Below are positions 6,483 through 31,798 of a stretch of 31,798 nt of DNA, piece by piece. Each line of letters begins with the position of its first letter. Within the stretch, counting starts at the first letter, position 1. The stretch spans positions 1 to 31,798 of IMG/VR virus record IMGVR_UViG_3300044470_000351; one strand, written 5' to 3'. A program made the translations under genes and the position numbers. Under the pieces are notes generated by a model, which was not told the DNA's origin, searched no databases, and saw only the letters and a program-made list of their open reading frames with translations. The stretch is from a virus.

Positions 6483-6511
6483 AGTATAATATCAAAAAAC
6501 TCAATTGTCAA
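6483..6511 (-). promoter_or_regulatory. Sigma-70 promoter for the Hsp20 gene
   Basis: On the minus strand, TTGACA (6506-6511), a 17-bp spacer and TATACT (6483-6488). The -35 box overlaps the last codons of the sigma-like gene. Confidence 0.9.
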
Positions 6512-7097
6512 TTGACTGCCATTTTACTCTCATTTTTTTAACCAAAAGACTGACCCGTTGTTTTGATATACCCATTCTTTCTCCTACTTCTCGCATAGAG
6601 GGTATTTTACTTTTAGTACCTGGAATAAGATAATTTTTCATTATTAGTTTTTCTTGTGAGGTTAATAAAGTTAAGAAGTCTTCAATTTGTAAGGAGTGTT
6701 CAACAGATTCTATTGTTGTATCTATTTGCTGGAGCCTATCAATAAAAGCATATAGAGAAGTGCAGATAGCGTCCTTTCTTCTCGGATATTTAGTATTACA
6801 GGTATCTCCTAATTTTTTATAAACCATTAGATTATTCCATAGCAATCGCTTTTTGAAAAAAGAGGTAAAGTCCCATCTGTCGGGGTTATTGACTTTAGCT
6901 TCTTTGAAAGATTTTATGGCTTTATGTAGAATTAAATAGGCTTCATTCATATAGTCGTTAAATTCAAAGCCTCGGGATTTATTTATTTGTATATAGGTCT
7001 TATAGTTTCTCTGTATTAATGGCTCATACTTCTTATATAAAGTATACATATATTTTTGATCCGTTTTTGCCTTACACACTAGCTCGTAATCTGTCAT
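6501..7097 (-). CDS. Sigma-70-family-like transcription factor
   Basis: This 198-residue protein has a region-2-like N-terminal half: YEPLIQRNYKTYIQ, then FEFNDYMNEAYLILHKAIKS and WDFTSFFKKRLLWN at about residues 24-95. This is the helical pattern that binds the polymerase clamp helices and the -10 element. The C-terminal part (about 145-195) is a region-4-like helix-turn-helix, LTSQEKLIMKNYL followed by SMREVGERMGISKQRVSLL. The length matches phage or extracytoplasmic-type sigma factors. The start at 7097 follows GAGGAG. Its gene is divergent from the clamp gene, with only about 60 bp between the two start codons. No clear sigma-70 promoter was found for it. A DNA-binding regulator with the same fold is the alternative. 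Confidence 0.75.
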   Translation of the reverse strand: MTDYELVCKAKTDQKYMYTLYKKYEPLIQRNYKTYIQINKSRGFEFNDYMNEAYLILHKAIKSFKEAKVNNPDRWDFTSFFKKRLLWNNLMVYKKLGDTCNTKYPRRKDAICTSLYAFIDRLQQIDTTIESVEHSLQIEDFLTLLTSQEKLIMKNYLIPGTKSKIPSMREVGERMGISKQRVSLLVKKMRVKWQSIDN

Positions 7098-13181: not shown

Positions 13182-15929
13182 ATGCAAAGTGATCGATTAC
13201 GTTTTCAATACATAGACCAATCTTTTACAGTTGGTACCACAACTGCCATTACAGGGGCTACTGTAATAAAGGCTTCAAAAGGAACCAATTATCCTCAACT
13301 TGTAAATAAAGGAGATACTCAAACTTTTCTAAATTTGTTTGGTGCTCCTTCATCTCAATACCCTGGAGTTCAGGAAGCTTTAGATTTTTTACAAAATTAT
13401 AGTCTATGGATATCAGCACCTGGAGGAGCAATTTCCTCCGCATCTTTGACTTCTTATTATGGTGGTGTATATCTAACTACATTAGGCTCAATGGAACAAT
13501 TTTATGCAGTCACTGAAGGTAATGCTGGAGTTCCATCTATAAACTTCCTTACTTCTGTTCAAACAGGAGATGGATCACCATTATCTGGACCTTCAACTAT
13601 GTCTTATAATGCAGGAACATATACATTGTCTATAAGTAATATCCCTGCTGCATTTTTTTCTGCTGGAAGCATAAGTTCAATTATATTAACCTTTAAAAGA
13701 AGTGATGGCACTATAGCAACCATACCCTTTACTGTAAGTGGTACTTCATTGCTTTGTGTTAACCCTTCTTCAGGATTGACTTTAACAGCAACTAATGCTG
13801 TTTCTTCTACAGGTATAAGTATTATTGGTGCTACTGGTGGTTTTTTTGATAATTACTCAATAACTACATCTACTGGCACTTATTCTGATTTAAGTTTTCA
13901 AACAAATAGTACTTATCTTACTTCTCTATGGGGAACTACAGTTCCATCTGGTACTTTAATGTGGATATATAACATTCAACAATATGTTATTATGGCTCTT
14001 TACCAAACTTCTCCACGAACAACTATTGGTTCATTAACGTTAGGTACAACTTATCCTATAGATACACGTACTACAGTAGCAACACAATATTCTTCTATAT
14101 TTACTTTCTTAGGATCAGCCACATTATCTAATGGAACAACATATCCTCTAACAATATGTAATAATACCTACTCCTTAACTCCAAAAATAGGAGGAACAGG
14201 TTCATCAATTCCAGTAACCTCGACTGCTACTTTAATTCAAGCTATTATGAATTCTCTTACAAATGCCTTTGTTCCTGGTGGTTATGCTGTAACCAATACT
14301 ACCTCTACAATAACCATTACCTATTCAGGTAATACTCTTGCGCCTTCAATTGTACTAGGTTCTTTACTTACAGCAGTCCCCTATGCTGTTAATTTTGTTA
14401 CACAGTATACAGTAGGGGGTCCTGGATCAGAAACCAATGGCTCTTTTATTCTAAATGGAACTCAATTTACTTTAGGTGCGACACTAATATCAAATACCAC
14501 AACTCTAGCTGCTGCTATAACTTCTGCGTGTACAGGAAATACAGGAAGTTATATAGTATCTAATCTAGGACCTATTATTAGTATTACTTATCCTATATCT
14601 TTGCCTGGACCTATCCTTTCATTTAATTCTTCTATGGGTGGGTTTACAACAACTATTACCAGTATCCCTGTAGCACCAACACCAACAGCAACTATAACTT
14701 CAAACCCATACTATAATACCTTTACCTTTAATTATACTGAACTAGCATATACAGGTTATAATTATACTAATGGTGGTAAGCCTTATATTTTAAGTCCTAG
14801 TCCTACAGCCGTAGATTCCTCTGGAAATAGTACCTATGCAGGAACTGTATTGGCAGGAGATAGTTTCTTAAATGCTATTTGTTATCAGAATTTTACAAAC
14901 ACACTAGCGGGATATACATGGAATCCTTCAGCACAAAATCTACAAGGAACTCGTGCAGCTTCTTCTATTTATCTTAATCCAACTGTAAGCTCTTATCAAT
15001 CAACATACTTGCCAATAGTATTAGCTGCGGGATGGAATATGATGACTCTCCCCGCCTTAGATAATGTAAATATATTCTTTGATCCAGAGTGTGATTTAGC
15101 AACTGCTTCTACAATGGCTTCAATGAGGACAGGCTCTATTTCTGATCCTTCTTTCTCAACCTATATAACAGGTATAAAAGTATCAGATGGTATATCTATA
15201 GGAAATTCCGATGTAAATAATGTAGTAAATGATCTTATTACAGCTCGGGCATCTTATCCTAATCTCTCTGGACTAGCGTATTATTGTAATGAGTTTCAAC
15301 AAACAGAAAATTATAATGGAACTACTTACTATAACATTCCTATAGGAGCTATAGCTTCAATGCTTGCCCTTATTATGGATGTAAAACTAGGTGGAGCGGC
15401 ACCAATGTATACTAATGAGGGGCAACCTTCTATTGGTGGACAAATAAATAAAGCTGTATCCAATCAAAAGTATAATTTTCAAGCTCAACATTTTAGTGCT
15501 TTATCTGCTGTTGGGTTGAATCCAATAATTCTTGACCCTTATTATCAGCTTATGATAACATCTCAATTAACAGCCCAGTCCCCTGCTAATGTTACGGATT
15601 GGTCTTATCTTGGTCACCAAATGTCCTTTGATCTGTTTATGGCCGAGATTAGACAAAATGTAATGATACCTCAAATTGGCAAGCTGATTGATTCTGCTCA
15701 TATGCAGTTAAGAACAGATCAATCAAACATTATTCTAAATAAGCGATTATCAGGACCTACAGCAATATGGAGTGCTGGTCAGGTATTCATTACTGAAGTT
15801 AATACTCCTGAAACTAAGGCCCAGAATAACTTTATTATGAAAATTCGTGTCAAAGTTACTCCCTTCTCAGAATACTGCACATTAATTTTTAATAATGTGG
15901 GGCAAACCTCCTCAGTTACTACAGCATAG
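13182..15929 (+). CDS. Tail sheath protein
   Basis: At 915 residues this is longer than T4 gp18 (659). The N-terminus (LRFQYIDQSFTVGTTTAITG, then TVIKASKGTNYPQLVNKGD and TFLNLFGAP) and the C-terminal core (YKFQ-like NKAVSNQKYNFQAQHFS; VDWSYLGHQMSF-like text; SAGQVFITEVNTPETKAQNN; IRVKVTPFSEYC) are those of contractile sheath proteins. The extra length is in residues about 110-480, where several beta-rich surface modules are inserted, two of them (306-390 and 419-473) of the kind that recurs in other tail proteins here. The sheath forms the contracting outer tube. Its leader has GGACTAA twice and no classical Shine-Dalgarno. A terminator follows directly. Confidence 0.9.
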   Translation: MQSDRLRFQYIDQSFTVGTTTAITGATVIKASKGTNYPQLVNKGDTQTFLNLFGAPSSQYPGVQEALDFLQNYSLWISAPGGAISSASLTSYYGGVYLTTLGSMEQFYAVTEGNAGVPSINFLTSVQTGDGSPLSGPSTMSYNAGTYTLSISNIPAAFFSAGSISSIILTFKRSDGTIATIPFTVSGTSLLCVNPSSGLTLTATNAVSSTGISIIGATGGFFDNYSITTSTGTYSDLSFQTNSTYLTSLWGTTVPSGTLMWIYNIQQYVIMALYQTSPRTTIGSLTLGTTYPIDTRTTVATQYSSIFTFLGSATLSNGTTYPLTICNNTYSLTPKIGGTGSSIPVTSTATLIQAIMNSLTNAFVPGGYAVTNTTSTITITYSGNTLAPSIVLGSLLTAVPYAVNFVTQYTVGGPGSETNGSFILNGTQFTLGATLISNTTTLAAAITSACTGNTGSYIVSNLGPIISITYPISLPGPILSFNSSMGGFTTTITSIPVAPTPTATITSNPYYNTFTFNYTELAYTGYNYTNGGKPYILSPSPTAVDSSGNSTYAGTVLAGDSFLNAICYQNFTNTLAGYTWNPSAQNLQGTRAASSIYLNPTVSSYQSTYLPIVLAAGWNMMTLPALDNVNIFFDPECDLATASTMASMRTGSISDPSFSTYITGIKVSDGISIGNSDVNNVVNDLITARASYPNLSGLAYYCNEFQQTENYNGTTYYNIPIGAIASMLALIMDVKLGGAAPMYTNEGQPSIGGQINKAVSNQKYNFQAQHFSALSAVGLNPIILDPYYQLMITSQLTAQSPANVTDWSYLGHQMSFDLFMAEIRQNVMIPQIGKLIDSAHMQLRTDQSNIILNKRLSGPTAIWSAGQVFITEVNTPETKAQNNFIMKIRVKVTPFSEYCTLIFNNVGQTSSVTTA

Positions 15930-15946
15930 GATTGAAAATTAGAGTG

Positions 15947-15977
15947 AAACTCCTACTAACTATAGTAGGAGTTTTTT
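15947..15977 (+). terminator. Intrinsic terminator after the sheath gene, overlapping the next ribosome site
   Basis: A 12-bp stem at 15947-15958 and 15963-15974 (core AACTCCTACTA/TAGTAGGAGTT) has a four-base loop and then a T-run to 15977. The 3' arm contains TAGGAG, the only Shine-Dalgarno site for the endonuclease ATG at 15978, so the hairpin both ends transcription and hides that site. Confidence 0.9.
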
Positions 15978-16580
15978 ATGGGTATAATTTATTGCGCTAC
16001 AAATAAATTAAATGGAATGATGTATTTTGGGTATTCTACTCGAATTCTAGAAAAAAGACAAAAAGAGCATCAAGATATGGTAAAATATGGTTCTAGCTGT
16101 TATTTTCATAGTGCTATTAGAAAATATGGCTGGAATAATTTTTCATGGAAAGTGATAGATTATGCTAATACAAAAAAGGAATTAGGAATATTAGAAATGC
16201 TTTATATTGAAATGTTTGATACATGCTTCCCTAGAAAAGGATATAATATGACAGAGGGTAATGATGGAGGAGTACAAAATGAAAAAACAAAAAATAAAAT
16301 GAGTGAATCTCAAAAATTAAGGCATAAACATTATATTCATCCTATGGCAGGTAGACATCATTCAGAAGAAGCAAAAAAAAAGATGTCAAAAAGTCATGAG
16401 GGAAAGCAAATAGGATCAGAAAATGGAATGTTTGGTAAACACTTTTCTCAAGAAACTATTGCTAAATTTAAAGAAGCCAGACAGGGGAGCAAACATCCAA
16501 TGTATGGTAAGCACCACTCTGAGGAAACCAAAAAAAAGATTAGTGAAAGTAAAAAGAAGTTTATGAAGAAAATAGACTAA
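15978..16580 (+). CDS. GIY-YIG homing endonuclease with NUMOD3 arm
   Basis: This 200-residue free-standing endonuclease has a GIY-YIG domain in residues 1-95: GIIYCATNKLNGMMYFGYS gives Tyr5, Tyr16 and Gly18. Arg27 and Glu73 (ILEMLYIEMFD) match the catalytic Arg27 and Glu75 of I-TevI, and KGYNMTEGNDGG follows. Residues 105-195 hold NUMOD3 units ([52 protein letters not shown]) for DNA binding. It is inserted between the sheath and tube genes, and likely cuts the matching site in related phages that lack it. Translation should be low from sheath transcripts because its ribosome site lies in the terminator stem. Its NUMOD3 units resemble those of the broken gene at 1-915. Confidence 0.9.
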   Translation: MGIIYCATNKLNGMMYFGYSTRILEKRQKEHQDMVKYGSSCYFHSAIRKYGWNNFSWKVIDYANTKKELGILEMLYIEMFDTCFPRKGYNMTEGNDGGVQNEKTKNKMSESQKLRHKHYIHPMAGRHHSEEAKKKMSKSHEGKQIGSENGMFGKHFSQETIAKFKEARQGSKHPMYGKHHSEETKKKISESKKKFMKKID

Positions 16581-16596
16581 TTAGAAGAGGAATATA

Positions 16597-17319
16597 ATGG
16601 CAGACTCAACAGGTCAAGTTACACTTTTAATGAACTCGGGTATTGATGCTTTTACCAATCTTTATGATATACAAATGGTATTTCCTACAAATGTTACTCC
16701 TTCATATGATTCTACTGCTACTTCAGGAGCAGGAGGATACGCTTATAGTGTTCGTGCTATGGGGTTTCAGCCCCCCGAGCTAACTTTGATGATATATAAT
16801 TCTGATTACAAAGGGGTTCAGTTGACAAAACAGGCTCCAAAAATACAAGGAGAGAGAACTTTTACTATTGAATTTAGAATGGATACTAATTATTATTTAT
16901 ATTATGATTTATTACAATGGAAACATATTTGGGTTGATCCTTCTGGAGAAGGAAACATTCAACCTGGGAGCTTATCCGATAATATAATGGATTCTACTAC
17001 TACTCCTGTAACTGGGAATATAGCACAATATGGACAAATAACTGTAGGGGCATACTCTGTTACTACTCCTTTAGATGGTTATTCTGATCCTTCTAATGTA
17101 GTAGATATAACATCACCTGGGGCTTCTTGGATTTTCTGGGATGTAGTATGCAATAAAGTAGGAACCCCTAATTATCAGCGGGCCGGAGCTGATGCAGTTA
17201 CAGTTACTGCTGAGTTTATTTTTGGTAGGTATAGTGAACCTTACTCTAATGGCTCCCCTTTAGCCCTAGCTACTCCTGGATCAACTATTCCTGCTCTTAC
17301 AGGAAATGCAGCAAACTAA
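16597..17319 (+). CDS. Tail tube protein, gp19-like
   Basis: This 240-residue protein has the T4-gp19-type tube pattern: N-terminal TGQVTLLMNSGIDAFTNLYD, a central strand pair (RAMGFQPPELTLMIYNSDYK), KIQGERTFTIEFRMDTNYYL, then the C-terminal VTVTAEFIFGRYS. Its place after the sheath, interrupted only by the endonuclease, is the usual sheath-tube order. It is longer than T4 gp19 (163) because of an insertion around residues 120-180 and an Ala/Pro-rich tail. AGAGGA precedes the ATG, and a strong terminator follows, as expected for a highly expressed tube subunit. Confidence 0.85.
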   Translation: MADSTGQVTLLMNSGIDAFTNLYDIQMVFPTNVTPSYDSTATSGAGGYAYSVRAMGFQPPELTLMIYNSDYKGVQLTKQAPKIQGERTFTIEFRMDTNYYLYYDLLQWKHIWVDPSGEGNIQPGSLSDNIMDSTTTPVTGNIAQYGQITVGAYSVTTPLDGYSDPSNVVDITSPGASWIFWDVVCNKVGTPNYQRAGADAVTVTAEFIFGRYSEPYSNGSPLALATPGSTIPALTGNAAN

Positions 17320-17332
17320 AATTATAAAAATT

Positions 17333-17359
17333 AAGCCCTTCCTTGCGGAGGGCTTTTTT
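17333..17359 (+). terminator. Intrinsic terminator after the tube gene
   Basis: A stem AAGCCCT/AGGGCTT (17333-17339 and 17349-17355) with an inner CC/GG pairing around TTGC is followed by a six-T run. It lies 13 bases past the tube stop codon. Confidence 0.9.
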
Positions 17360-17360
17360 A

Positions 17361-17372
17361 TACTAATTATAC
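17361..17372 (+). promoter_or_regulatory. Recurring ACTAA-type motif abutting a start
   Basis: TACTAATTATAC lies directly between the tube terminator and the ATG at 17373. Transcription must either read through or restart here, so this copy is a good test of promoter function. Confidence 0.45.
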
Positions 17373-17945
17373 ATGAGTACTGGTCAATTAACTACTCTTC
17401 TCAATGTTGAAAGTTCAAGGGCTTTTTCTAATCTTTTTGAAGTGAGTATAACGAAAAGTACTGGTTTTGCGTTCTCATCTGATTCCTCTTCTATACCCTA
17501 TCAAGCTAAATCCTTAAACTTTTCTGATAATTTTGGATTTAAGTTAGAATTAAATGAAGCAATACAAATGTTTATGATGAAGGGTGTAGAGAGAATAAAG
17601 GGAGTTAGTATTGTATTTAAGGAAACAAGTAACTATACTATTACTAATCTAATAAAATCATGGATGAATTCAATATATGACTTTAATCAGCATGTATTTC
17701 TATCTGGAGACCCAACTGGAACTATTACGGTAAACCTTGATGACAACCACTCCCATGTAGGTTCTATTGTAATAGAAGATGTAATACCTCAAACTTTAAC
17801 CTATCCAAACTATACATGGTCTGATTCAAATCCCATTGATATAACAGCTACTTTTGCGTGTGGTAGAGTATACTGGAATAATAGTTATGATGATACTTTA
17901 AGTTCAAATTCTAAAAATTCTTATTATGTAGGTAAAGGAATATAA
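17373..17945 (+). CDS. Second tail-tube-like protein (gp19/gp54-like)
   Basis: This 190-residue protein is a paralogue of the tube: its start STGQLTTLLNVESSRAFSNL aligns with the tube's TGQVTLLMNSGIDAFTNLYD. The order of elements that follows is the same (FKLELNEAIQMFMMKGVERI, then GVSIVFKETSNYTITNLI, ending with the strand IDITATFACGRVYW). In T4, gp54 shares the tube fold and forms the tube initiator on the baseplate, so an initiator or a second tube ring is the likely role. The next gene is gp25-like, which fits. Its TAA overlaps the next ATG (TAATG). No Shine-Dalgarno site is present. Confidence 0.75.
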   Translation: MSTGQLTTLLNVESSRAFSNLFEVSITKSTGFAFSSDSSSIPYQAKSLNFSDNFGFKLELNEAIQMFMMKGVERIKGVSIVFKETSNYTITNLIKSWMNSIYDFNQHVFLSGDPTGTITVNLDDNHSHVGSIVIEDVIPQTLTYPNYTWSDSNPIDITATFACGRVYWNNSYDDTLSSNSKNSYYVGKGI

Positions 17946-18331
17946 TGGCAAATACAAATAGTATAAGTGTAGACAAATATGCCGATATTCCTTATGATGG
18001 TGCTACTGGAAATTTTCTTCAAGCTACCAGTATAGATGCTATAAAAAATGTAATTAAGATGTATTTATTTTCTAAAAATGGAGATTACCAAAGAAACATA
18101 ACTAAGGGTGGAGTTTTATTCGACATGATAGGAAAGAAGCTTACTGATGTAAATGCACAACTTTTAGAAAAAAAGATAACTGATGCTTTAAATCAATTTT
18201 CTAATATTAATGTAAATAGTGTACTGGTATCTTTAGATATTCAAAATAAAATGTTTATAGCTAAAATAACCTTTTCTGATACTTATAATAAATTCGTTTC
18301 TTCTACCTCAATAGGAGTATCAGCCTCATGA
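17945..18331 (+). CDS. Baseplate wedge protein, gp25-like
   Basis: In this 128-residue protein residues 26-110 match the GPW/gp25 family: SIDAIKNVIKMYLFSKNGDY, then GGVLFDMIGKKLTD and ITDALNQFSNINVNSVLVSL. Gp25 staples the gp6 wedges to the sheath and tube initiator, so the order tube-like, gp25, gp6 is the expected baseplate layout. AAAGGAATATA-ATG gives the ribosome site. Both its ends overlap neighbours (TAATG and ATGA), showing tight coupling. Confidence 0.9.
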   Translation: MANTNSISVDKYADIPYDGATGNFLQATSIDAIKNVIKMYLFSKNGDYQRNITKGGVLFDMIGKKLTDVNAQLLEKKITDALNQFSNINVNSVLVSLDIQNKMFIAKITFSDTYNKFVSSTSIGVSAS

Positions 18332-20754
18332 AACAATTTGATTCCGCTTCAATAGCGAGTAGAACATTAGCTTCCTTGTCTACAAGTAGTAATTGGTCTC
18401 AGTTATTAGGAGATAGCGCTACTACTGAACTCATTTCTTCTTTTGCTGACTCCGAAGCAGAATCAGTACGATATATGGAAAATTTACTCTCTGAAGCAAA
18501 ATGGGGGTATGCTCAAAATCTATCTTCCTTTGTTACTCAAGCTTCTTATTTAGGGTATATACCACAAAGAAGAGTATCCGCTATTGGCACTATATATATT
18601 TCCCATGATCCCCAAATGGCTAATTTAGGTGCTACCTTATTTACATTAAGCGATTTACAATCTAATTTAACTACTTATGGAGGGAGTACAATTCCCATAG
18701 CAGTAGGTACTGTATTTTCAACTACTACTTCTCCACAAATAAAATTTTTATCTACTCAAGCAGTAGCTTATGCTTCTGGTATGCAGTATTTAGCAATACC
18801 AGTTATTCAAGGAGTAGTATCTTCAGTTGTGACAACAATGCTAGGAAATCCTTTTGAAGAAATACAAATAACTGATAATACTATAGAAGATGCTTCTAAT
18901 TCTATTTCTTCACAGTTTTTTTATGTGAATATTACTCCAGCAGGAACAAGTACTTCTGTACTTTGGAATAAACTAGAAGATATTTATTTAGCTGATAGTA
19001 CTGACACTAGCTATGATATTAAGGTTCCTACTGACCTTTCTTCAACAATAGTTAGATTTGGTAATGGAATTGTTGGAATGATTGTCCCCGCTCAATCAAC
19101 AGCATCGGTAACTTATATAAGCTCCCTTGGTATTGATGGTAATATAAATAGCAATTATAGTGTTAATACTATTCTAACTCCTCTACCAATAAGTATGTAT
19201 TGTTCTAATCTTTCTCCTATACTAGGAGGAGCAAGTATAGATACCCCATTAAACATTCAGGGGAAAGCACCTACGGCATATGTGATAAATGGAGGATCAA
19301 TTATATCTGCCCCAGGATATAAAGCCCTAATAGAAAGTTTCAGCTATGTTAAAACTGCTTCTGTATATGCTGCTTTGTATCTTAACCCACTTTCTGGTTT
19401 AACCCAGAATACCATTATGTATTCAGCTATTAATACAGAGGGGGCAGATGCTAATTATGATGTTTATTCAGGGACCTCAGGATTATTAGTAAGTGCTGTA
19501 GAAACAGCTTTACTAAATAAAAATTCTCCTTTGGATGTAATTCAATATATCTCCCCTAATTTTTTGCATGTAAAATTTAATATAATAGCACAAGCATTAT
19601 CCCTATCTTCTATATCCTTATCTTCGTTAGAATCTACTATACAGGAAGATATTTATTCCAATTTTGGCACATTAACACAATCTTTTAATTCAGTATATGA
19701 TAATTCTGCTCTTTTATCCTATATTAATAAAAACTACTCCTTACAACAAATAAGCCCTCAGTTAGAGGCTGTGACTAATCTTTTACCAAGTAATTTTACT
19801 ATTGATAATGCTCATTCAGGAAGTTATCTCTCTAATTTTTATTTTGATCCTTCCTTTAATTCTTTGTATGGTTTTGACAACAATCATCAATATTGTCTTA
19901 AAATAAACATCATATTTACTTGTGCTTCCTGTTTATCTAATAGTAGAACCTTATTTTTAGTTCCTATCTCAAGTACAGCCATAGCTTATACCTGTACAAT
20001 AAACTCATCAGCTATGATAGTAGGTATAGGCAATTCATATACTACTTTTACTTTTAATAGCACAGTGTTTTCCCCTGGTTCTTCTCCTTCCTTTACTATA
20101 CCTGTATCTCCTGTCCCGACAGTAGCTTCAGTAATGAAAGCAATATGGACTACTCTTAATGCCAGTTCGTATAATACCTCTTATAGTTTTATTTTAGGTA
20201 GTAATAATGTTTTATATGTAACTCCATTATCTACAACAGTTGGTTCTTCCTCAATAAGCCTTTCTCTAACCACTGGATTACAAGGAATTACATTTAATAC
20301 AGTAAATTCGGGAAACTGGCAAGTATTACAATATCCTTATATTTCTGTTGTTACTGATAATAATTATATGCTAAATTATGTTTTAAACAATAATACAGCT
20401 CCATATGTAATACCTAGTACTAACACATCATTAGTAGTAGGAAGTAATATAGAAACACTCTATATACCTTTTGCTATAACTTTTGATTATTCTACATTAA
20501 ATCCTTCTAATTTAAGCTCTACTCAGTTAGGATCAGGAAGTATTAGTATACCTACCTTATTGCCTGGAGGAAGTGCTAATTCGTATTATTTGAATTTTAG
20601 TTCCTCTACCGCTAATGAAAATGTAGTGATAGAGGTTATTGCTATGCCTATTTCTGGAAATATTGTTCCTTATGCTGAAAATAATATAGTTCAACTAGGG
20701 CAGATAACCCAAAATGGTATTACTGTTGACGATGTTATAATACAACTACAATAG
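18328..20754 (+). CDS. Baseplate wedge protein, gp6/J-like
   Basis: In this 808-residue protein the N-terminus (ELISSFADSEAESVRYMENL) and the conserved stretch at about residues 240-275 (STIVRFGNGIVGMIVP followed by SVTYISSLGIDGNINSN) are typical of the Baseplate-J/gp6 family. That family forms the ring of wedge dimers. Residues 290-480 continue the family's C-terminal part (KALIESFSYVKTASVYAALY). An extra region, about 540-650, is a beta-rich module (FTFNSTVFSPGSSPSFTIPV) of the type that recurs in the sheath and the fibre proteins. The start overlaps the gp25 stop (ATGA). Confidence 0.85.
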   Translation: MKQFDSASIASRTLASLSTSSNWSQLLGDSATTELISSFADSEAESVRYMENLLSEAKWGYAQNLSSFVTQASYLGYIPQRRVSAIGTIYISHDPQMANLGATLFTLSDLQSNLTTYGGSTIPIAVGTVFSTTTSPQIKFLSTQAVAYASGMQYLAIPVIQGVVSSVVTTMLGNPFEEIQITDNTIEDASNSISSQFFYVNITPAGTSTSVLWNKLEDIYLADSTDTSYDIKVPTDLSSTIVRFGNGIVGMIVPAQSTASVTYISSLGIDGNINSNYSVNTILTPLPISMYCSNLSPILGGASIDTPLNIQGKAPTAYVINGGSIISAPGYKALIESFSYVKTASVYAALYLNPLSGLTQNTIMYSAINTEGADANYDVYSGTSGLLVSAVETALLNKNSPLDVIQYISPNFLHVKFNIIAQALSLSSISLSSLESTIQEDIYSNFGTLTQSFNSVYDNSALLSYINKNYSLQQISPQLEAVTNLLPSNFTIDNAHSGSYLSNFYFDPSFNSLYGFDNNHQYCLKINIIFTCASCLSNSRTLFLVPISSTAIAYTCTINSSAMIVGIGNSYTTFTFNSTVFSPGSSPSFTIPVSPVPTVASVMKAIWTTLNASSYNTSYSFILGSNNVLYVTPLSTTVGSSSISLSLTTGLQGITFNTVNSGNWQVLQYPYISVVTDNNYMLNYVLNNNTAPYVIPSTNTSLVVGSNIETLYIPFAITFDYSTLNPSNLSSTQLGSGSISIPTLLPGGSANSYYLNFSSSTANENVVIEVIAMPISGNIVPYAENNIVQLGQITQNGITVDDVIIQLQ

Positions 20755-20762
20755 GATAAAGT

Positions 20763-23700
20763 ATGTCATACATAGCGCCTATCGGACAAGCAAATTTAAT
20801 AGAAAGACTAGGAACAATTCCTACCCCCTACCCTTCATATGTAACAGTTATTCCTACAGATGATACTTATGCCACTGATGATATATCTATTTCTAATGTA
20901 ATTAGATCACAATCTGATTATGTTACAGTAACTAATCCATATAATAATCTTCATAGCTTAATGCAAAATGAGTTTTATCAAGAAATATGCGATATTTTAA
21001 CTTCTGAATATCAATATGTTATTGATAAATTTAATGAGCTAAAAACTCTTTATAATATTGATTACTATGATGGGGATCAAGATACTTTTTTAAAAAAAAT
21101 AAGCAATATCGCTAATGAATTTAATGTAGTGCTACCTCTTTCTTTTATTCCCTATACTAATATAGAAAATGCCAATGGAGCTACATTAGAAGCATCAGCT
21201 AATGTTACAAAACAAAATGATTTTTTAAGAAACATAGTAAAAAGAATATGGTTAATGAGAAGATGGACAGGGAGCCTTTTTGGATATAAATTACCTGTAA
21301 AACTAATAAATAGGATTGGAGCTGTTCATTTAGGATTATTAACTGTATCCTCCTCTTCCTTTTTAAATAATAGAATATATGAGACCATTGATCCAGTGCA
21401 ATACTCTAATATATATCCTAATTCTTCAACCTATCCTAATAGCATTAGCATTCCTGGGGCTAAAAGTTTTAGTTTGATACAAGACGCTTATTACTATTGG
21501 GATACACAGTTAACATGGGATCAAACTATATTAAACAATTCTTTAGAGTGGGATACTACAGTAGCATTACCTCATTCAGGAAAAAGATTATTTATTGAGA
21601 TAGCCTTAGATAGAGTTATTACTTATATAAATAGTATATCTTCTAATCCCTCTGTTTGCCTAATGGAAAATATTTATTTAGATACTGTGAAATCTTTAGA
21701 AGGATATGTACATAAAATACAAGATATAGTTAATATTGGTTGTCAATTATCATTACTAACAAGTAAGGATGGATACTTTAATACCTACAGTAGTGCTGCT
21801 TCTACTCCAAGCCTAGTGTATACTCATCCTAACATACAAGCCAAATTTCAAGTATTTCCTAATTGGAATCTTTCTGCTCTCTCTGTCTCTGGTTCTTATA
21901 TAAAAATAGGAACTGGTGGGTTTATTAAAAATCAGTATCACACTGCTACTTTTACTATTACTAGTCCTTGTAGTACTACAGGAGTATTAACGTGGGGTGG
22001 TGGTGCTTCTGGTATTTTACCAGTTTCAAACTCATTAGTAACTACAACTCAAGTTGCGGCATATATACAACAGAATCCCCCTGTAGGATGGTCTATTACC
22101 AATATTGGTGCTTTAGTTATAATGTCTACGATTAGTAGCAATGCTCCTACTATCAATGTAGGAAACACAGGAATAGTAATATCTACAATTAATTTTACTC
22201 TATTACAACCAGGAATACCTATAACAATATTACAATCTACTGCTACCTCTGGAACTTCGTCAAGTTTAACTGATATCACACAGAATTGGAGTGTAAATTG
22301 GGCTCAATATTCAACAGCAATAAATATAATAGCAGGTACAGGGGCAGGAAATAGTTATACTGTTGCATCTAACACTACTACCCAAATAACTTTTAATCCT
22401 TCTTCTTATACTTCGGCTCTAGACTCTACCTCTGTATATCAAATTATAGGGACTATAGATTTAAATGTATTTAATAGTTGTGGTTTGAATGGAAGTGTAC
22501 CATCAATACCTACACAGGCATTGGTTCAAATAAAAGATTTACAATCCCCTGTATTTTCTTCTCCTTTATTAACTACAAATGAAATAGTAAATTTAGGAGC
22601 ATTTATTTTAATAAACCATGTAATACACTCAAGAGACATGTACTTTCCTAACTTTACTGTTCCTATTGTTACAAATAATATCTCAGCTATCCCCCAAACT
22701 GCATATAGTACTTGTATTTCTTTACCTAACCCTTATGTAGCAGCAGGGTCTGTACAACTAGGAATAAATATAAATGTTATCATTCCTGCTCCTGTAGTAA
22801 CTCAAAATAATCCTGGACCTTTAGTTATAACCCCTCTTCCTTCTAATAACAGAAATACATATTATTATGCTATTACTCTTACTACTACTACAGTTGCCAC
22901 TACCATTACTATTAGTTCTCTTGATAGCCTAACTAATAATACTTATACTTGTAATTTATCAGTATCTCCATCATTAACATCATTGGTTGCTGTTATGGCT
23001 CAAATAAAAACAGATTTACAAACTAATTCTCTTTCTAATTGGAGTATAACTACAACTGGAAATATCCTTACTATATCCTCTATTTTAAATGAGCTTCACC
23101 AGCAAATAAAGATATATGAACAATATGACAGTATAAAAAGAATATACTATCCTAAAGTTACTACTTTATCCCTTCTCCCTCCCTCTTTCACTACCCCACT
23201 AATAGTTTCCACTTCAGGAGTAACATTTTCTACCGTAACAACTAATAATAATTATCCTTACTCTTTCAAATTTCAAATTTTATACTTGGATAATCTTCAA
23301 GATGGACAATCATTTACTTTAAATGGTATTGAAATACCAGTATATGCTAATGATACCTATCAAAGCATTGCTGAAAGGATAGTATTAGTAGACATCCCTT
23401 CTTGGGATATTTCATGGGGGGCATCTCCGGTTATTCTTAACACTGTTGTAGTTGGATACAATTATTATATTTATATGTCCTATGTTAATCCGTATACTGA
23501 ATTAAATAATTACTCTATATATTCAGGATATACTACAGATTCTTATTATGAACAACAATCTCCTAACCAGTATTTATCAACAGCTCAAATGCAATGTGTA
23601 AATCTACTCCCTCTGTTTGGTATAGATAACTATCCTTCGTTGTATAAAAATCTTGTAGGTGATTACAGGCTTGATAATGGGTCCACATCAGTACTTACAG

Positions 23701-24701
23701 ATTATACTTCTACCTCTCTTACTACTTCATTAAGTGGTACCTCCACAAATGTAACAACAGGGACTAATGGATATATACCATTAGGGACCCCTGGAGTAAC
23801 TAATGGATATAGTGGTATTATTTCCTATTATTATAAATATGCTGGATCGGGCTATTCTTTAGTAAACAATGTAGCATCATATAATCAAAATATGCCCATA
23901 GCTTTTTCTGGTATGACTATAGCCTTTTCTTACAATGTATCCACCCTTACTGCCCAATCAAATAGTGTTATTATAGCAAAACAGAATGCAGCAAAAAGTG
24001 GTGGTTGGGGATTATACTATACTTATGCAGCAGGAGTTGGCACTTTATCTTTATACTCTGTGTCTGCTGGAGGAACCAATACTTGGAGTATAAATATTCC
24101 CACCTCTGGATGGCATAGAGTACTAATAACTCTTAATTCCAACGCTATAGCTACTGCTCCTCTTGCTTCTATTTATATAGATAGTATTATTTATGCTTTA
24201 GCATTTTCTTCCACTGTTTCTGGTACTGCCTATACTTATAATGTAGATACGAGCTATCCTTTATCTATAGGGGGTTTTTCTACTCCTTCCAATAATTTTA
24301 CTGGTTGGCTATCCGATATAAAATTATGGAATAGGGGGCTAACTTCTTATGAAATAGCACAAGAAGTTCCATCTATTTTATCTAGGTTACTCTATCTAAT
24401 AGATACTATTGGAAATTCTCAATATGTTTCGATAGATCATACTACAGGAACTGTTGGATTAAAATTTCAGTATAATCCTTCTGGGTTATTGTCAACAGCT
24501 TATACTGCCCAAAGTACTACTGTAAACAATTTTTATACTGATGAAACATACTCTTTAATTACTTCTAATGCTCTTATAGCTATATCAGAGCTTGGAGTTT
24601 TTGATAGTAGTAATAATCTAATGGCTTATGCTACCTTTCCTTCTGTTATTTATAACCCTAAAGATTACCATTTATCAGTAAATCTTCTAGTTCAGAACTA
24701 A
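20763..24701 (+). CDS. Large baseplate/tail protein (gpI/gp7-like N-terminus) with LamG-like domain
   Basis: In this 1312-residue protein the N-terminal 200 residues (QNEFYQEICDILTSEYQYVI, then NDFLRNIVKRIWLMRRWTGS and LFGYKLPVKLINRIGAVH) read like a wedge or gpI-type protein that links baseplate to fibres. The place after gp6 fits gp7. The rest is beta-rich: three copies of the recurring module (about 392-479, 699-769, 842-902), then a concanavalin/LamG-like domain at about 961-1204. This last has DYRLDNGS, MTIAFSYNVSTLTAQSNSVI, GWHRVLITLNSNAIA and the typical closing FTGWLSDIKLWNRGLTSYEI. LamG folds bind sugars, so this wedge probably carries its own host-binding arm. AGGATAAAG precedes the ATG. 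Confidence 0.65.
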   Translation: MSYIAPIGQANLIERLGTIPTPYPSYVTVIPTDDTYATDDISISNVIRSQSDYVTVTNPYNNLHSLMQNEFYQEICDILTSEYQYVIDKFNELKTLYNIDYYDGDQDTFLKKISNIANEFNVVLPLSFIPYTNIENANGATLEASANVTKQNDFLRNIVKRIWLMRRWTGSLFGYKLPVKLINRIGAVHLGLLTVSSSSFLNNRIYETIDPVQYSNIYPNSSTYPNSISIPGAKSFSLIQDAYYYWDTQLTWDQTILNNSLEWDTTVALPHSGKRLFIEIALDRVITYINSISSNPSVCLMENIYLDTVKSLEGYVHKIQDIVNIGCQLSLLTSKDGYFNTYSSAASTPSLVYTHPNIQAKFQVFPNWNLSALSVSGSYIKIGTGGFIKNQYHTATFTITSPCSTTGVLTWGGGASGILPVSNSLVTTTQVAAYIQQNPPVGWSITNIGALVIMSTISSNAPTINVGNTGIVISTINFTLLQPGIPITILQSTATSGTSSSLTDITQNWSVNWAQYSTAINIIAGTGAGNSYTVASNTTTQITFNPSSYTSALDSTSVYQIIGTIDLNVFNSCGLNGSVPSIPTQALVQIKDLQSPVFSSPLLTTNEIVNLGAFILINHVIHSRDMYFPNFTVPIVTNNISAIPQTAYSTCISLPNPYVAAGSVQLGININVIIPAPVVTQNNPGPLVITPLPSNNRNTYYYAITLTTTTVATTITISSLDSLTNNTYTCNLSVSPSLTSLVAVMAQIKTDLQTNSLSNWSITTTGNILTISSILNELHQQIKIYEQYDSIKRIYYPKVTTLSLLPPSFTTPLIVSTSGVTFSTVTTNNNYPYSFKFQILYLDNLQDGQSFTLNGIEIPVYANDTYQSIAERIVLVDIPSWDISWGASPVILNTVVVGYNYYIYMSYVNPYTELNNYSIYSGYTTDSYYEQQSPNQYLSTAQMQCVNLLPLFGIDNYPSLYKNLVGDYRLDNGSTSVLTDYTSTSLTTSLSGTSTNVTTGTNGYIPLGTPGVTNGYSGIISYYYKYAGSGYSLVNNVASYNQNMPIAFSGMTIAFSYNVSTLTAQSNSVIIAKQNAAKSGGWGLYYTYAAGVGTLSLYSVSAGGTNTWSINIPTSGWHRVLITLNSNAIATAPLASIYIDSIIYALAFSSTVSGTAYTYNVDTSYPLSIGGFSTPSNNFTGWLSDIKLWNRGLTSYEIAQEVPSILSRLLYLIDTIGNSQYVSIDHTTGTVGLKFQYNPSGLLSTAYTAQSTTVNNFYTDETYSLITSNALIAISELGVFDSSNNLMAYATFPSVIYNPKDYHLSVNLLVQN

Positions 24702-24704
24702 AAG

Positions 24705-24716
24705 GACTAATTATAT
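24705..24716 (+). promoter_or_regulatory. Recurring ACTAA-type motif abutting a start
   Basis: GACTAATTATAT directly precedes the ATG at 24717. AAAAGG just upstream could also act as a distant ribosome site. Confidence 0.45.
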
Positions 24717-25943: not shown

Positions 25944-25953
25944 GGATTAAAAG

Positions 25954-28900
25954 ATGGGTGGATATTACCAATATACAAGTTTAGCACAACTATTAGTTCC
26001 TTCAACAATAGTAGGAACTGACCCTACAGGAATAGACAATACTGCTCCGTTTACAAACACATTGACCTATCCTTCTACCTATAGTTCAACTTCCGCTATT
26101 GGAACAATACCTACTATGATAGCACCTTTCACTGGTGAAGCTATCAATACTAATTTCTATAACTTAGCCTTATCAGCTATTGATAATACTAGTCGTATTA
26201 CTAATATTGAGGCTAGGTCATTATCTTCCTCTTCTTCATTAGTAGGATATGTTACTTACAATGGTCTTACTGAGGCTTTGGGAGAGTTTTATTCAGGAAC
26301 CCCTCTATCTATTTCTTCTGTGAATACTTTTAGTCTAAATTTACAATTGGATGGAACTACTGGTCATAAATTTGCATTTAGGGTAGCAGCAGGATCAGGG
26401 ATAGCGTATATAGGTAGTTCTGTAAATATACCTGCATCTACCTTTAGAACAGTTTTTATTGGTGATGCTACTTATGGTGGAACATATAGCTCCACTGCTA
26501 CTTTATATACCTATTTAATTTCTAAGCTAAGATACAATAGTAATACTGCTTCTTATGGAACTTCAGCTTTTAATGTTACAGGAAACTCTTCTCCTGCAAC
26601 TTATACCTATCCTATAACCATAAATAAAACTTTCATGATTTATATCAATGATAGCTATATGACAGGAACAGGTGCTGTATGTACAATAAATAATACTTAT
26701 ACTAATTTTACAAATTATATGGGTGGTATAGCAAATGCTATGAATGCAGCAGTAGTTGGTACCTTTGGAGTAGCGTATAACAATTTATTTTATGTAGCAC
26801 AAACAGGAAACAATGTAATTATTACTGCTAATAATAATAGGGCTACTGGTGGAGTATATGAATTTTTATTAGCAATGGCAAGTGGAGATACAACCACTAC
26901 CTCTATATTAGGAACAAATTCAGTATATGGTGGGTTAGGAGTATTGAATACTAGTGGTAATACTTCTCAAGTTGAAACATATGATCTTTCTTCTTTCTTA
27001 AATTTTACTTTTACTGGTTCGGCTAACCCTTATTATCTTAATCTTGTAGGCAATGGTCCTTCAATGACTATGGCTTTCCTAGATGGAGACACTTCTGTTT
27101 ACACTACTCCTGGATTTTTCTATAATAATGGTTCTGGTAGTTTTATGGGTCTTTCTGGTCCTACAGCTACTTCATCATTATTAACTTCGCATACTCGCTA
27201 TCCTACTTCCTTAACGTATTCTTCACCTTATATATTAAATTATGGTGGAAATTTAAATGTAAATAATTTTAGTTGTAATAATTTTACTGCTACAGGTACT
27301 GTTACTTATTCAGGAACAGTTTCTTTCTCTGGTGTGCAGGTATTTAGCAATATTACTGCTAATGGAAATTTGACAGTAACTGGAACTACACAAAATGTAG
27401 GTTCTTTTGATGCTGGTACAACTCTTTCTAACTTTCCCTATTCAACAACAACACGATTAAATTATGATGGTATACTGTATGCAGCATTATTTAATGGTGA
27501 TGCTATTGGAATACATCTTCCTACTTACATTTATAACTTTGCCTATAGCTCTGCTGCTCCTTTAGGCTATGGCTATTATAATGATGCTTCTGGTGCTATT
27601 CCTACTAATGGATATGGTGGTCCTTTTTATTATGCCAATGGTGGTGGTACTGGATTTAGTTCACCTCTTACCTTGGCATCTACAAACAATACTGTATTAT
27701 TTAATACTTTTGATATAACATTATCAAAGCCCGCTTCCAACTGTCAAGGACAAGGTATTTCTTATGATTTTGCTATTGATTATGGTATGACTACTCAGCC
27801 CTTTCAAATTTCATTTATATATACCACTCCGAATAATACAAACTATGCTACTGGCTATATATCCGTATTTTTATATGATAAATCTAATTCTAATTTAATT
27901 CCTTTGTCTACTAATCAGATTATTGCTACTAATGGATTGCCCTCTATGTTCTTGGCTACTTTCTTACCTTCTTCCTCTACACAATATAGATTGATATTTC
28001 ACATAACTACATCTACAGATACAGCTTCATATACGTTACAATTTAATGCTGTATCTGTAGTACCACAGACATTCTTGACTACTACCTCTACCATGATAAA
28101 TGCATGGACATCTTATCCTTTAACAATAGGTACATATGGAACAGGAACCACTAATGTTACTTTAGGAACAGGGGGTATAGCCTCTGCTCAATGGAGACGC
28201 TCAGGCTCAGACATGGAAATTTTGTTTAATTACACCCATACCTCTGCGGGTTCTGCGGGCTCGGGAACTACATATTTATTCCCTTTACCTGCTGGTTATA
28301 CTATTGATCAGACAAAATTAACTTCTACGCTAGGAACAGCTACTTTTCTACCAGTTGGACATGGTAAAATAGCAATAGCGGCTAGTACTACTGTTTCCTA
28401 CGCTACTATGTATGTTAATCCCTCACTAACAAATATAAGTACTACAGGTTTAACTTGGTATAATAGTCTTATAATGCAGTACTTATCCTCATTAACAGCA
28501 GAGACCCAAGTAGCTACAGCTAACTCTGGTAATATAACTCAAGCCACTTATTTAGGATATGATTTCTATGCTAAAGTTCCTATTGCTCAATGGAATGTCC
28601 CTACTAATCTTTCTACTGATTATCAAGAATACGCCTATAATAGTAATAATATTACTCCTGCTGCAAACGATACTACTTCTTTTGCATATGGAGCTAATGG
28701 AGTATTGGTTCAATCCTTTTCTACATCTGGGGTTACTCCAATAACAAGATATGTTCAATTTACAAAAACAATAAATAATAGAGATGATTTTGTTGTAGAG
28801 TTCATGAACCCTACCTATCCCTCAGTATGGTTAACAGCTAATCAGCTTGGTTATGGGTATACAGCATTATCTACTACAAATTACTATGGAGTATCCACAA

Positions 28901-29484
28901 CCATAGTGAATAGTACTACAGTTTCTGTAAATTTCTATCAAGCATATGATGTTGGTACTGGTCATACGTGGGCATCAATAAATACATGGTATTGGAGAGT
29001 AAGAAAGAGATCAGTAGGGAATACAGCGGAACAGCCACCCGTAATTCGTGCCGAATATTACACTACCTCTTCTTCTGTAGGTTCTTCAGGAACAGTTATT
29101 AACTGTGATACCATGTTTGAAGACACCCATACTTGTGTTTCTACTCCTGCGTCAGCTTGGAAATTCACTGCCCCTTCTCCTGGAGTATACCAAATGGAAG
29201 TAACCTTGGGGTTACAAACTGGTAAAGTATTCAGTCTGAATGAAATTGATTTAGTAGTTCTTTTCAAGAATGGCACTGCATATTCTACATTATCTTCATA
29301 TAATAATGGTGCTGCTTATACTACTTCAGGGAATTTTGTTATTACTGGTACAAAAACTATAAGATTAAAACCTGGAGACTATATTCAAGCTTTTTACTAT
29401 TATGCTAATTCCCCTTCTTATATTACTTATGCTCTTAGTGCCCCCTATTGCACACGTATAATTGTAGAAAGAATAGGGGCATAA
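25954..29484 (+). CDS. Tail fibre protein with C1q/TNF-like C-terminal domain
   Basis: This 1176-residue protein starts with MGGYYQYTSLAQLLVPSTIV, which may dock to the baseplate. The recurring beta module is at about 222-292. Around residue 740-770 it has the fibre segment AQWRRSGSDMEILFNYTHTS followed by YLFPLPAGYTIDQTKL, a pattern seen in many phage fibre tips. The last 150 residues resemble a C1q/TNF-type jelly roll: TMFEDTHTCVSTPASAWKFT, APSPGVYQMEVTLGLQTGK, TKTIRLKPGDYIQAFYYYAN, ending IIVERIGA. Such trimeric domains bind receptors. AAGGATTAAAAG before the ATG gives a ribosome site. Confidence 0.75.
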   Translation: MGGYYQYTSLAQLLVPSTIVGTDPTGIDNTAPFTNTLTYPSTYSSTSAIGTIPTMIAPFTGEAINTNFYNLALSAIDNTSRITNIEARSLSSSSSLVGYVTYNGLTEALGEFYSGTPLSISSVNTFSLNLQLDGTTGHKFAFRVAAGSGIAYIGSSVNIPASTFRTVFIGDATYGGTYSSTATLYTYLISKLRYNSNTASYGTSAFNVTGNSSPATYTYPITINKTFMIYINDSYMTGTGAVCTINNTYTNFTNYMGGIANAMNAAVVGTFGVAYNNLFYVAQTGNNVIITANNNRATGGVYEFLLAMASGDTTTTSILGTNSVYGGLGVLNTSGNTSQVETYDLSSFLNFTFTGSANPYYLNLVGNGPSMTMAFLDGDTSVYTTPGFFYNNGSGSFMGLSGPTATSSLLTSHTRYPTSLTYSSPYILNYGGNLNVNNFSCNNFTATGTVTYSGTVSFSGVQVFSNITANGNLTVTGTTQNVGSFDAGTTLSNFPYSTTTRLNYDGILYAALFNGDAIGIHLPTYIYNFAYSSAAPLGYGYYNDASGAIPTNGYGGPFYYANGGGTGFSSPLTLASTNNTVLFNTFDITLSKPASNCQGQGISYDFAIDYGMTTQPFQISFIYTTPNNTNYATGYISVFLYDKSNSNLIPLSTNQIIATNGLPSMFLATFLPSSSTQYRLIFHITTSTDTASYTLQFNAVSVVPQTFLTTTSTMINAWTSYPLTIGTYGTGTTNVTLGTGGIASAQWRRSGSDMEILFNYTHTSAGSAGSGTTYLFPLPAGYTIDQTKLTSTLGTATFLPVGHGKIAIAASTTVSYATMYVNPSLTNISTTGLTWYNSLIMQYLSSLTAETQVATANSGNITQATYLGYDFYAKVPIAQWNVPTNLSTDYQEYAYNSNNITPAANDTTSFAYGANGVLVQSFSTSGVTPITRYVQFTKTINNRDDFVVEFMNPTYPSVWLTANQLGYGYTALSTTNYYGVSTTIVNSTTVSVNFYQAYDVGTGHTWASINTWYWRVRKRSVGNTAEQPPVIRAEYYTTSSSVGSSGTVINCDTMFEDTHTCVSTPASAWKFTAPSPGVYQMEVTLGLQTGKVFSLNEIDLVVLFKNGTAYSTLSSYNNGAAYTTSGNFVITGTKTIRLKPGDYIQAFYYYANSPSYITYALSAPYCTRIIVERIGA

Positions 29485-29486
29485 AA

Positions 29487-29498
29487 GACTAATTAGAT
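29487..29498 (+). promoter_or_regulatory. Recurring ACTAA-type motif upstream of the last gene
   Basis: GACTAATTAGAT lies 12 bases ahead of the ATG, with AGAGGA between. The same arrangement (GACTAATTAGAA, then AGAGGA) is at 16575-16586 before the tube gene. Confidence 0.4.
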
Positions 29499-29510
29499 AG
29501 AGGATAAACA

Positions 29511-31798
29511 ATGCCAGCCTACCCTTCAGAACATGGTGATGTATTTATACTTGCTGATACTACTCGACAGCAATTAGCATTTAATGCTCATGGAACAAAT
29601 TATACTATTCAACCTAATGTATGGTATATGCTTGGCACTACTCAAGCTGTATATAAAGGGTATGCAATAGCAATATTAACAACAAACCCCATTACTGTAG
29701 GAATTGCTGATCAAAATTCAGTAGCAGCAATTATTGGTGTGGCTTTAAATACAGTCACCTCTCCCTCTTCTTTAGTTACCCTATCTGGAAGCTCAATAGA
29801 TACTACCGATTTACATAAAATACTTATGGCATCTACTACCGGAATAGTTTCTGGTATGATGGTATCAGGTATTGGTATCCCTATTAATACCTTTGTAGCT
29901 TCTGTTTCTAATAATACCTATATTATATTAAATAATGCACCATCAGGATATACTAATCTTACATTTGGTACCGCTATTGAGGTAGCCTCTGAAGGACCTT
30001 TTAACTTTACTTCTGCTGTTTTCAATGCATCAGATATAGGGTTGCCTCTCTATATGTATCCTGCTGCTTCTACTACTTTTACTGGTCCAGGAACCATAAG
30101 CCCGCCTACTACTCAACTTACAACCTCGCACTCTTTAGCATCAGCCTCAGGACAACCTATACTTGAAGTAGGAGTATGCACTTCTATTTATTCTATGCTA
30201 ATAGACCTACAAGGAGATGTCCGAGGAGCATCTGGCTTATCTCAAGTATCAGTAAATGCTGGTGAGGCTATCCCTAATATAGCTACCCCTTTAGTAGTTT
30301 CTATGGGATCAGATGGGTATGCATACGTTGCTGATAAAAGAAAATCATCCAATATATTAGCACCAAAATTATTATTAGGTACAAATTCAAGTGGATTAAC
30401 ATTACAACAAGCTACACCTCAAACCACTATGGCTACTTTTACTGTTACTCATGGGGCTACCTCAGGAGGAAGTGTAGTTCAGTGGGGAGGGGGTGCATCT
30501 GGAAATGTAACAGTATCTGCTTCTGATGATATGCCCACCGTAGCTTTAGATATTATTACTTCGGCTCCTTCAGGATGGGTAATAACCTCACAAGGGCCTA
30601 ATGTTACTATGGTAAAGACAGGAATACAGGCTGCTCCTACCATAGCACCAGGTAATGGTGTTACTTTTAGTGCTATTTCAACTACTTTTACTTATTCACA
30701 ATATACATTAACTTTATCTGGTACTGCTAATGGTGGTAGTATTGTTATTCATGGGCTATCTATTACTCCTACTACAGGACACACTTCTAATCAAGCTGCT
30801 TCTGATATAGTCACCGCTATAAATCTTTCCACTAATGGGTTGTCAACAACATGGTTAGCATCTTCTTCTACAAATATTGTTACTCTAACCTCTATAGTAA
30901 ATACTAATAGAAATACTCCGGTAGGGTTTTTAATAGGGGCTAATTCTGGATTTAGTAATACTTATGCTTCTGGTACAGGTTCAGCAGGTGGGAGTATAGC
31001 CAAGATACTGTGGATTCCTGATTTAGGATATTTTGTAGGGCTTGTAAGTGGTTCATCAAATGCTGCATATTATTCCATTGATGGTATAAATTGGGCAGCA
31101 ACAGGAAACTTACCTTCTTCAGGAAACTGGATGGACTTGGCATGGTCCCCCTCTTTAGGCACTTTAGTTGCTATATCTCAAACTACTGCTGGTGCTTATT
31201 TTGTTTCTGCATCAAAAACATGGTCGTCTATGACACTTTCTTCTCCAGGAGGTGGATCATGGTGGGCAGTAAAATGGTCACCATCATTAAATTTATTTGT
31301 AGCTATAGCCAATGGCTCAACGGCAACATCATATTCCTCTACTGGAACAGGAACATGGTCAACAGGTGGAACATTTACTACTACAACTCAATGGGGTTCA
31401 TTAGAATGGAGTCCTGATTTAGGAAAATTTGTTGCAACCTCCTTAAATGCAGGTCGTTCTGCTTATTCAACAAGTGGATTAACATGGACAGAGAGCACCG
31501 CAGGATTACCTTCAGGTGGAACTAAATCTATAAAATGGTCTTCAACTTTAGGGTTGTTTGTAGCCCTTTGCCAGACTACCAATACTACTATTTCAGTAGC
31601 CTCCTCTGATGGTATTAATTGGCAACAATATGCAAATTTACCAGCAGCAGGGGTAGGATTTACATGGTCAGCATTGGAATGGTGCCCAGATAGATTAATT
31701 TTTATAGCACTTTCTAATAATACAAGTGCAGCAACAGTAGCTTACTCCTCTGATGGAAAAGCATGGACAGCATTAACAACTTCTCCAGTATTACCTGC
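29511..31798 (+). CDS. Large tail fibre/adhesin protein with beta-propeller-like repeats (partial at right edge)
   Basis: The frame is open from the ATG at 29511 to the window end: 762 codons with no stop. AGAGGATAAACA precedes the ATG. The N-terminus is MPAYPSEHGDVFILADTTRQ. At about residues 303-376 is a copy of the recurring module with QWGGGASGNVTVSASDD and PSGWVITSQGPNVTM, and another copy lies at about 396-463. From about residue 495 a repeat of 40-50 residues begins, at least five copies. Each copy has a W-x-P-x-L-G-x-F-V-A strand (AWSPSLGTLVAIS, KWSPSLNLFVAIA, EWSPDLGKFVATS, KWSSTLGLFVALC) and an Asp-Gly turn before a tryptophan (SIDGINWA, SSDGINWQ, SSDGKAWT). This is the pattern of BNR/sialidase-type propellers, a common ligand-binding head. 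The end is outside the window. Confidence 0.8.
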   Translation, partial: MPAYPSEHGDVFILADTTRQQLAFNAHGTNYTIQPNVWYMLGTTQAVYKGYAIAILTTNPITVGIADQNSVAAIIGVALNTVTSPSSLVTLSGSSIDTTDLHKILMASTTGIVSGMMVSGIGIPINTFVASVSNNTYIILNNAPSGYTNLTFGTAIEVASEGPFNFTSAVFNASDIGLPLYMYPAASTTFTGPGTISPPTTQLTTSHSLASASGQPILEVGVCTSIYSMLIDLQGDVRGASGLSQVSVNAGEAIPNIATPLVVSMGSDGYAYVADKRKSSNILAPKLLLGTNSSGLTLQQATPQTTMATFTVTHGATSGGSVVQWGGGASGNVTVSASDDMPTVALDIITSAPSGWVITSQGPNVTMVKTGIQAAPTIAPGNGVTFSAISTTFTYSQYTLTLSGTANGGSIVIHGLSITPTTGHTSNQAASDIVTAINLSTNGLSTTWLASSSTNIVTLTSIVNTNRNTPVGFLIGANSGFSNTYASGTGSAGGSIAKILWIPDLGYFVGLVSGSSNAAYYSIDGINWAATGNLPSSGNWMDLAWSPSLGTLVAISQTTAGAYFVSASKTWSSMTLSSPGGGSWWAVKWSPSLNLFVAIANGSTATSYSSTGTGTWSTGGTFTTTTQWGSLEWSPDLGKFVATSLNAGRSAYSTSGLTWTESTAGLPSGGTKSIKWSSTLGLFVALCQTTNTTISVASSDGINWQQYANLPAAGVGFTWSALEWCPDRLIFIALSNNTSAATVAYSSDGKAWTALTTSPVLP

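Follow-up and report, generated by a model that had tools for sequence, protein, structure and literature searches.

A probable sheath-insertion domain multiplied over at least three tail proteins of a divergent contractile-tailed phage

Six copies of one small beta-rich module hold up in three tail genes of the phage record studied here: the sheath gene, the gene for a 1312-aa protein, and the last gene of the record. It is quite probable that they represent a known promiscuous sheath-insert domain that has multiplied in a divergent myophage, so that at least three of its tail proteins carry it. The count of six copies in three genes comes from the outcomes of BLASTP, held-out HMM and block-profile comparisons, most of which these segments passed. 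The two sheath copies were the weakest, and the second of them was marginal by sequence.

The window, meaning the whole stretch of DNA analysed, is an IMG/VR record of 31,798 bases; it includes a tail module, seemingly that of a large contractile-tailed phage. Genes of this tail module are as follows, with the label gp6-like given by similarity and the label gp7-like by gene order only:

Sheath-like protein, 915 aa, assigned from its place among the genes and from a weak match in its C-terminal part
15978-16580, plus strand: GIY-YIG/NUMOD3 homing endonuclease, which separates the sheath gene from the tube genes
16597-17319 and 17373-17945, plus strand: two tube proteins, matched to PHROG 45 (tail tube) at E 0.002 and 0.0002
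gp25-like wedge protein, assigned by weak PHROG wedge matches
gp6-like protein, 808 aa, similar by tblastn (E 2e-5 to 1e-4) to baseplate wedge proteins of Rhizobium phages
20763-24701, plus strand: gp7-like protein (baseplate wedge/fibre), 1312 aa
29511-31798, plus strand: last protein

The C-terminal part of the 915-aa protein weakly matched T4-type sheaths (HMM E 0.001), and its place ahead of the two tube genes supports the sheath call. The two neighbouring tube proteins aligned with one another at 26% over 130 aa (E 6e-4), a similarity in sequence that suggests duplication of the tube gene. Three fibre-like proteins were found in the tail module.

Several other features of the window were recorded. 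A TnpB-family RNA-guided endonuclease gene lies upstream of the tail genes (9455-10714, plus strand; NCBIfam guided_TnpB, E 7e-85), and an Rfam scan of the window at the gathering threshold gave no match. Two overlapping plus-strand frames, 3-338 and 265-915, were both NUMOD3-type endonuclease-like, which suggests a single frameshifted or decayed gene of this type, cut by the window edge. On the minus strand, 5903-6376 codes for an HSP20 small heat-shock protein (E 1e-8), and 6501-7097 is a gene that weakly resembles one for a sigma factor. The protein upstream of the sheath (12056-13141, plus strand) had a fibronectin type III match below threshold at aa 262-335 (E 5e-4). Near its C-terminal end, the 1312-aa protein contained a Laminin_G_3/concanavalin-like lectin domain (aa 1046-1199, E 4e-7, above cut-off), plausibly a sugar-binding part. 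Residues 498-758 of the last protein contained WSPDLG-like repeat units, akin to proteins of the jumbo phages CM1, RAS14 and XacN1 (at most 32.7% identity, E 1e-14); these repeats look like a beta-propeller.

The preliminary description of this DNA had proposed at least nine copies of one module in five genes. Common origin was examined with leave-one-out (jackknife) HMMs, in which the score of each real segment was set against 2000 shuffles of that segment with composition kept, with leave-pair-out HMMs, also scored against 2000 shuffles, and with a block profile, built partly on sheath inserts from outside the window, with 400 shuffles per segment. The blocks of this profile were hand-picked, so its shuffle counts tilt somewhat toward the module. 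The segments are listed here with the number of shuffles that reached the real score:

14091..14399, plus strand: S1, sheath copy 1, aa 304-406; leave-one-out 4/2000, leave-pair-out 9/2000, block profile 41/400; BLASTP to LA
14403..14666, plus strand: S2, sheath copy 2, directly 3' of S1, aa 408-495; leave-one-out 49/2000, leave-pair-out failed (373/2000), block profile 3/400; fold match to sheath insertion domains
21930..22214, plus strand: G7A, copy 1 of the 1312-aa protein, with WGGGASG, aa 390-484; leave-one-out 0/2000, leave-pair-out 18/2000, block profile 4/400; BLASTP to LA and fold match
22851..23135, plus strand: G7B, copy 2 of the 1312-aa protein, aa 697-791; leave-one-out 1/2000, leave-pair-out 0/2000, block profile 0/400
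30420..30689, plus strand: LA, copy 1 of the last protein, with WGGGASG, aa 304-393; leave-one-out 0/2000, leave-pair-out 1/2000, block profile 21/400; homologous to G7A by sequence
30690..30980, plus strand: LB, copy 2 of the last protein, directly after LA, aa 394-490; leave-one-out 2/2000, leave-pair-out 1/2000, block profile 0/400
23247..23531, plus strand: G7C, doubtful third copy of the 1312-aa protein, aa 829-923; leave-one-out 688/2000, leave-pair-out failed, block profile 3/400 (the only test passed)
19978..20307, plus strand: G6, claimed copy of the gp6-like protein, aa 551-660; leave-one-out 1149/2000, leave-pair-out failed, block profile 89/400; layout only
26608..26904, plus strand: FB, claimed copy of the 1176-aa fibre, aa 219-317; leave-one-out 422/2000, leave-pair-out failed, block profile 230/400; layout only

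Two of the three genes carry their copies as adjacent pairs: S1 and S2 occupy aa 304-495 of the 915-aa sheath-like protein, and LA and LB adjoin in the last protein. G7A and LA are plainly homologous as judged by BLASTP, in which aa 391-480 of the 1312-aa protein aligned with aa 304-393 of the last protein (44.6% over 92 aa, E 7e-7 to 1e-6). These are the segments with WGGGASG (21993-22013 and 30483-30503), in genes 20763-24701 and 29511-31798, which had been picked out as especially close, and this proved correct. The two were alike over part only at the DNA level (67% over 89 bases), so the duplication or exchange that produced them is old. The strings quoted for the module were also all found in place: SGWVITSQGPNVTM at 30570-30611, VGWSITNIGALVIM at 22083-22124, SNWSITTTGNILTISS at 23034-23081, GSYIVSNLGPIISITY at 14544-14591 and GGYAVTNTTSTITITY at 14277-14324. 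The strand motif proposed with them was too weak to use when written as a regular expression: it occurred 3 times in the real sequence, against 1.1 +/- 1.0 times in shuffles.

The other copies were less sharply resolved. BLASTP of sheath aa 337-430 against aa 327-419 of the last protein gave E 0.006 in one direction and 0.26 in the reverse, and the leave-pair-out score of S1 was 5.8, while non-module windows reached up to 11.7 in that test. When the block profile was trained on the outside inserts alone, only G7B and G7A exceeded most shuffles. G7C passed with the full block profile, but its score of 12.1 was below those of the best non-module windows (14.6).

The proposed nine copies in five genes are therefore best divided. 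Most of the tests bore out six, in the sheath, the 1312-aa protein and the last protein, but G6, FB and G7C were without convincing sequence support. Likewise, the proposed spread of one domain over the tail stands for these three proteins, on sequence and models, but not for the gp6-like protein and the fibre, where sequence support was absent. It is not very likely that all nine segments are one module and that the gp6-like and fibre copies have diverged beyond sequence recognition. By eye, G6, G7C and FB do have the order strand-strand-helix-strand-strand, and baseplate-J-like proteins of other phages match the module fold among viral models. However, G6 and FB were no better than shuffles in the leave-one-out, leave-pair-out and block-profile tests, and no helix was predicted for G7C in a model of very low confidence.

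The predicted structures point to a known fold. AlphaFold was given aa 385-930 of the 1312-aa protein, aligned to a single further row, LA, and modelled G7A with a pLDDT of about 78; no other part was confident. The G7A model consists of strands at 8-17, 23-28 and 33-37, a helix at 44-53, and strands at 59-64, 67-73, 79-81 and 93-97. Its best match among solved structures was the sheath insert of phage A-1(L) (Z 9.0, rmsd 2.4 over 83 residues), and the next were the sheath inserts of Milano (Z 8.9), Mu (8.4) and PhiTE (8.3). Flagellin 4nx9 (Z 8.1), FliD (7.4) and then podophage tail proteins followed, and the Bxb1 capsid matched weakly. G7B was predicted at low confidence in the order strand-strand-helix-strand-strand.

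Sheath aa 295-500 were modelled separately (mean pLDDT about 49-50). In this low-confidence model S2 matched Mu (Z 8.1), PhiTE (7.8), A-1(L) (7.6), FlaD (7.2), FliD (7.0) and Milano (6.7), and Foldseek assigned it to 8kee with a probability of 1.00. S1, predicted as strands-helix-strands with low pLDDT, chiefly matched a T4 baseplate chain when taken alone (Z 4.9). Compared through their matches to solved structures, G7A and S2 gave the same sheath inserts. Both S2 and G7A aligned to about residues 85-215 of the solved sheaths of A-1(L), Milano, Mu, PhiTE and XM1. Against a library of viral models, the sheath model matched tail sheaths and proteins of the baseplate-J-like, major tail and capsid kinds; phage ctWb16 was hit with two of its proteins. 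The fold searches also listed collagen-adhesin, EF-Tu and antibody rows, which were dropped for low Z or high rmsd.

According to the fold-search tool, Z under 8 can mean a common arrangement, and Z of 7-9 for one small domain is only moderately above that; the Z values of S2 are mostly near or under 8, so S2 alone is insufficient. The alignment for the sheath included rows from G7A, G7B and LA-LB, so that the two models are not wholly independent. That models of two different proteins reach the same solved domains is nevertheless the strongest evidence for a shared fold. From these models, the module is likely the accessory insertion domain of contractile-phage sheaths, named Ig-like or InD in the literature and akin to the D2/D3 outer domains of FliD and flagellin. 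The premise that sheath and baseplate proteins normally lack such inserts was mistaken, as solved sheaths carry insertion domains of this fold.

It is unlikely that G7A and LA are the only homologous pair and that the remaining copies arose separately as beta-rich inserts and converged on one layout in T/S/N-rich tail proteins. A decisive pairwise E-value was obtained only for G7A and LA, the proteins carrying the copies are compositionally biased, S2 failed one held-out test in which S1 scored under some non-module windows, and the profiles are thin, with non-significant hhalign links to outside inserts. Against convergence, shuffles that preserve composition rarely equalled G7B, LB, S1 or LA, and the models of S2 and G7A selected the same solved domains.

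Sequence searches did not place the module in a family. No profile of Pfam, PHROG or NCBIfam matched it in scans of whole proteins and segments. Scans of viral contigs with the sheath, last, gp6-like, 1312-aa and tube proteins and with the WGGGASG pair gave no close relative. Nothing was found for the sheath among phage records, its sequence gave nothing useful against solved structures, and a DUF3383 alignment found nothing in genome contigs. The Flagellin_IN family (PF07196), a sequence family related to the FliD and flagellin outer domains, had no match in the window even with E allowed up to 10. Nor had PF11863, for which control genomes gave no match in that search either; a Pfam scan of the sheath also gave no PF11863, and the same scan does detect it in AP22.

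Comparison with known systems thus falls mainly on fold and layout, as profile comparison gives no tie to outside inserts. The sheath insertion domains of A-1(L) gp9, Milano, Mu, PhiTE and XM1, of about 85-100 residues, have the same fold as the module with no detectable sequence link. Unlike those sheaths, this phage has a tandem pair in its sheath and more copies in the 1312-aa and last proteins. The D2-D3 domains of FliD and the outer domains of flagellin matched the module with Z of 7.0-8.1, but they are flagellar parts, while the module is a virion part without a PF07196 match. The XM1 insertion domain was itself matched to FliD by its authors (PMC10457771).

The DUF3383 (PF11863) sheaths of AP22 and twelve others contain an insert which, read from sequence, has the same strand-strand-helix-strand-strand layout. 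The comparison with DUF3383 made in the preliminary description was apt in this respect but did not extend to a sequence-level link, because profile-profile comparison of these inserts with the window copies was not significant. Among 17 phage records scanned with Flagellin_IN, only Rhizobium phage RHph_N46 responded, below the cut-off. Its 773-aa sheath has two copies of the layout, one with the weak Flagellin_IN match (E 0.041); they lie apart, whereas the sheath copies of the window are adjacent, and their profile link to the window copies was not significant.

Phage Ig-like domains offer a further comparison. Phage capsids, tail tubes and sheaths can all bear them (Fraser et al. 2006, as cited in PMC9230969), and the domains added to sheaths, which are frequent in large phages, are often Ig-like and sit at a distance from the tube (PMC9230969). 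Ig-like domains are said to be present in about a quarter of tailed phages, and phage Douge has them on its capsid and its tail tube, where they bind mycobacterial glycans (PMC13033339). Such domains place one surface-exposed domain type on several virion proteins. Here, likewise, one domain type is found on more than one virion protein, with G7A and LA in two genes and, less strongly, S1, S2, G7B and LB. The module differs from domains described as Ig-like in having a helix between its strands, and glycan binding is known for those other domains.

The preferred explanation is that the module is an accessory domain of about 90 residues, with three strands, a helix and three strands in that order, of the type inserted in many contractile-phage sheaths. 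Such a domain would have entered tail genes by insertion, undergone tandem duplication, and reached at least three proteins (sheath, 1312-aa and last) through duplication or recombination. The copies may face away from the tail, as is the case for added domains in solved sheaths. They could there make weak multivalent contacts with the cell surface, steady the contacts between neighbouring subunits and fibres, or do both, and copies in fibre proteins may act as spacers. A role in adhesion or stability has about an even chance of being right. Surface binding, as proposed at the outset, is a fair guess; shielding and antigenic exchange were also considered, and there was no evidence for either.

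Adhesion or stabilisation was rated likelier than docking between copies. It is very unlikely that the fibre and wedge copies bind the sheath copies and keep folded-back fibres on the tail before adsorption, and most unlikely that copies multiplied on sheath, wedge and fibre for docking together, holding the fibres back and releasing them on adsorption or contraction: one domain type does occur on the sheath, wedge/fibre and last proteins, and in A-1(L) a long tail fibre lies in the sheath groove, held by a wedge insertion domain (PMC10966104), but there is no evidence of contacts between such domains in this phage.

The multiplied sheath-insert domain is ordinary in kind and well marked in degree, that is, a known promiscuous domain and not a new system. 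The presence of a sheath-insertion/flagellin-D2-like domain in genes of different function within one divergent tail supports the view that such domains are interchangeable surface decorations. Domains of this kind can escape current sequence families, and their spread is therefore probably underestimated.
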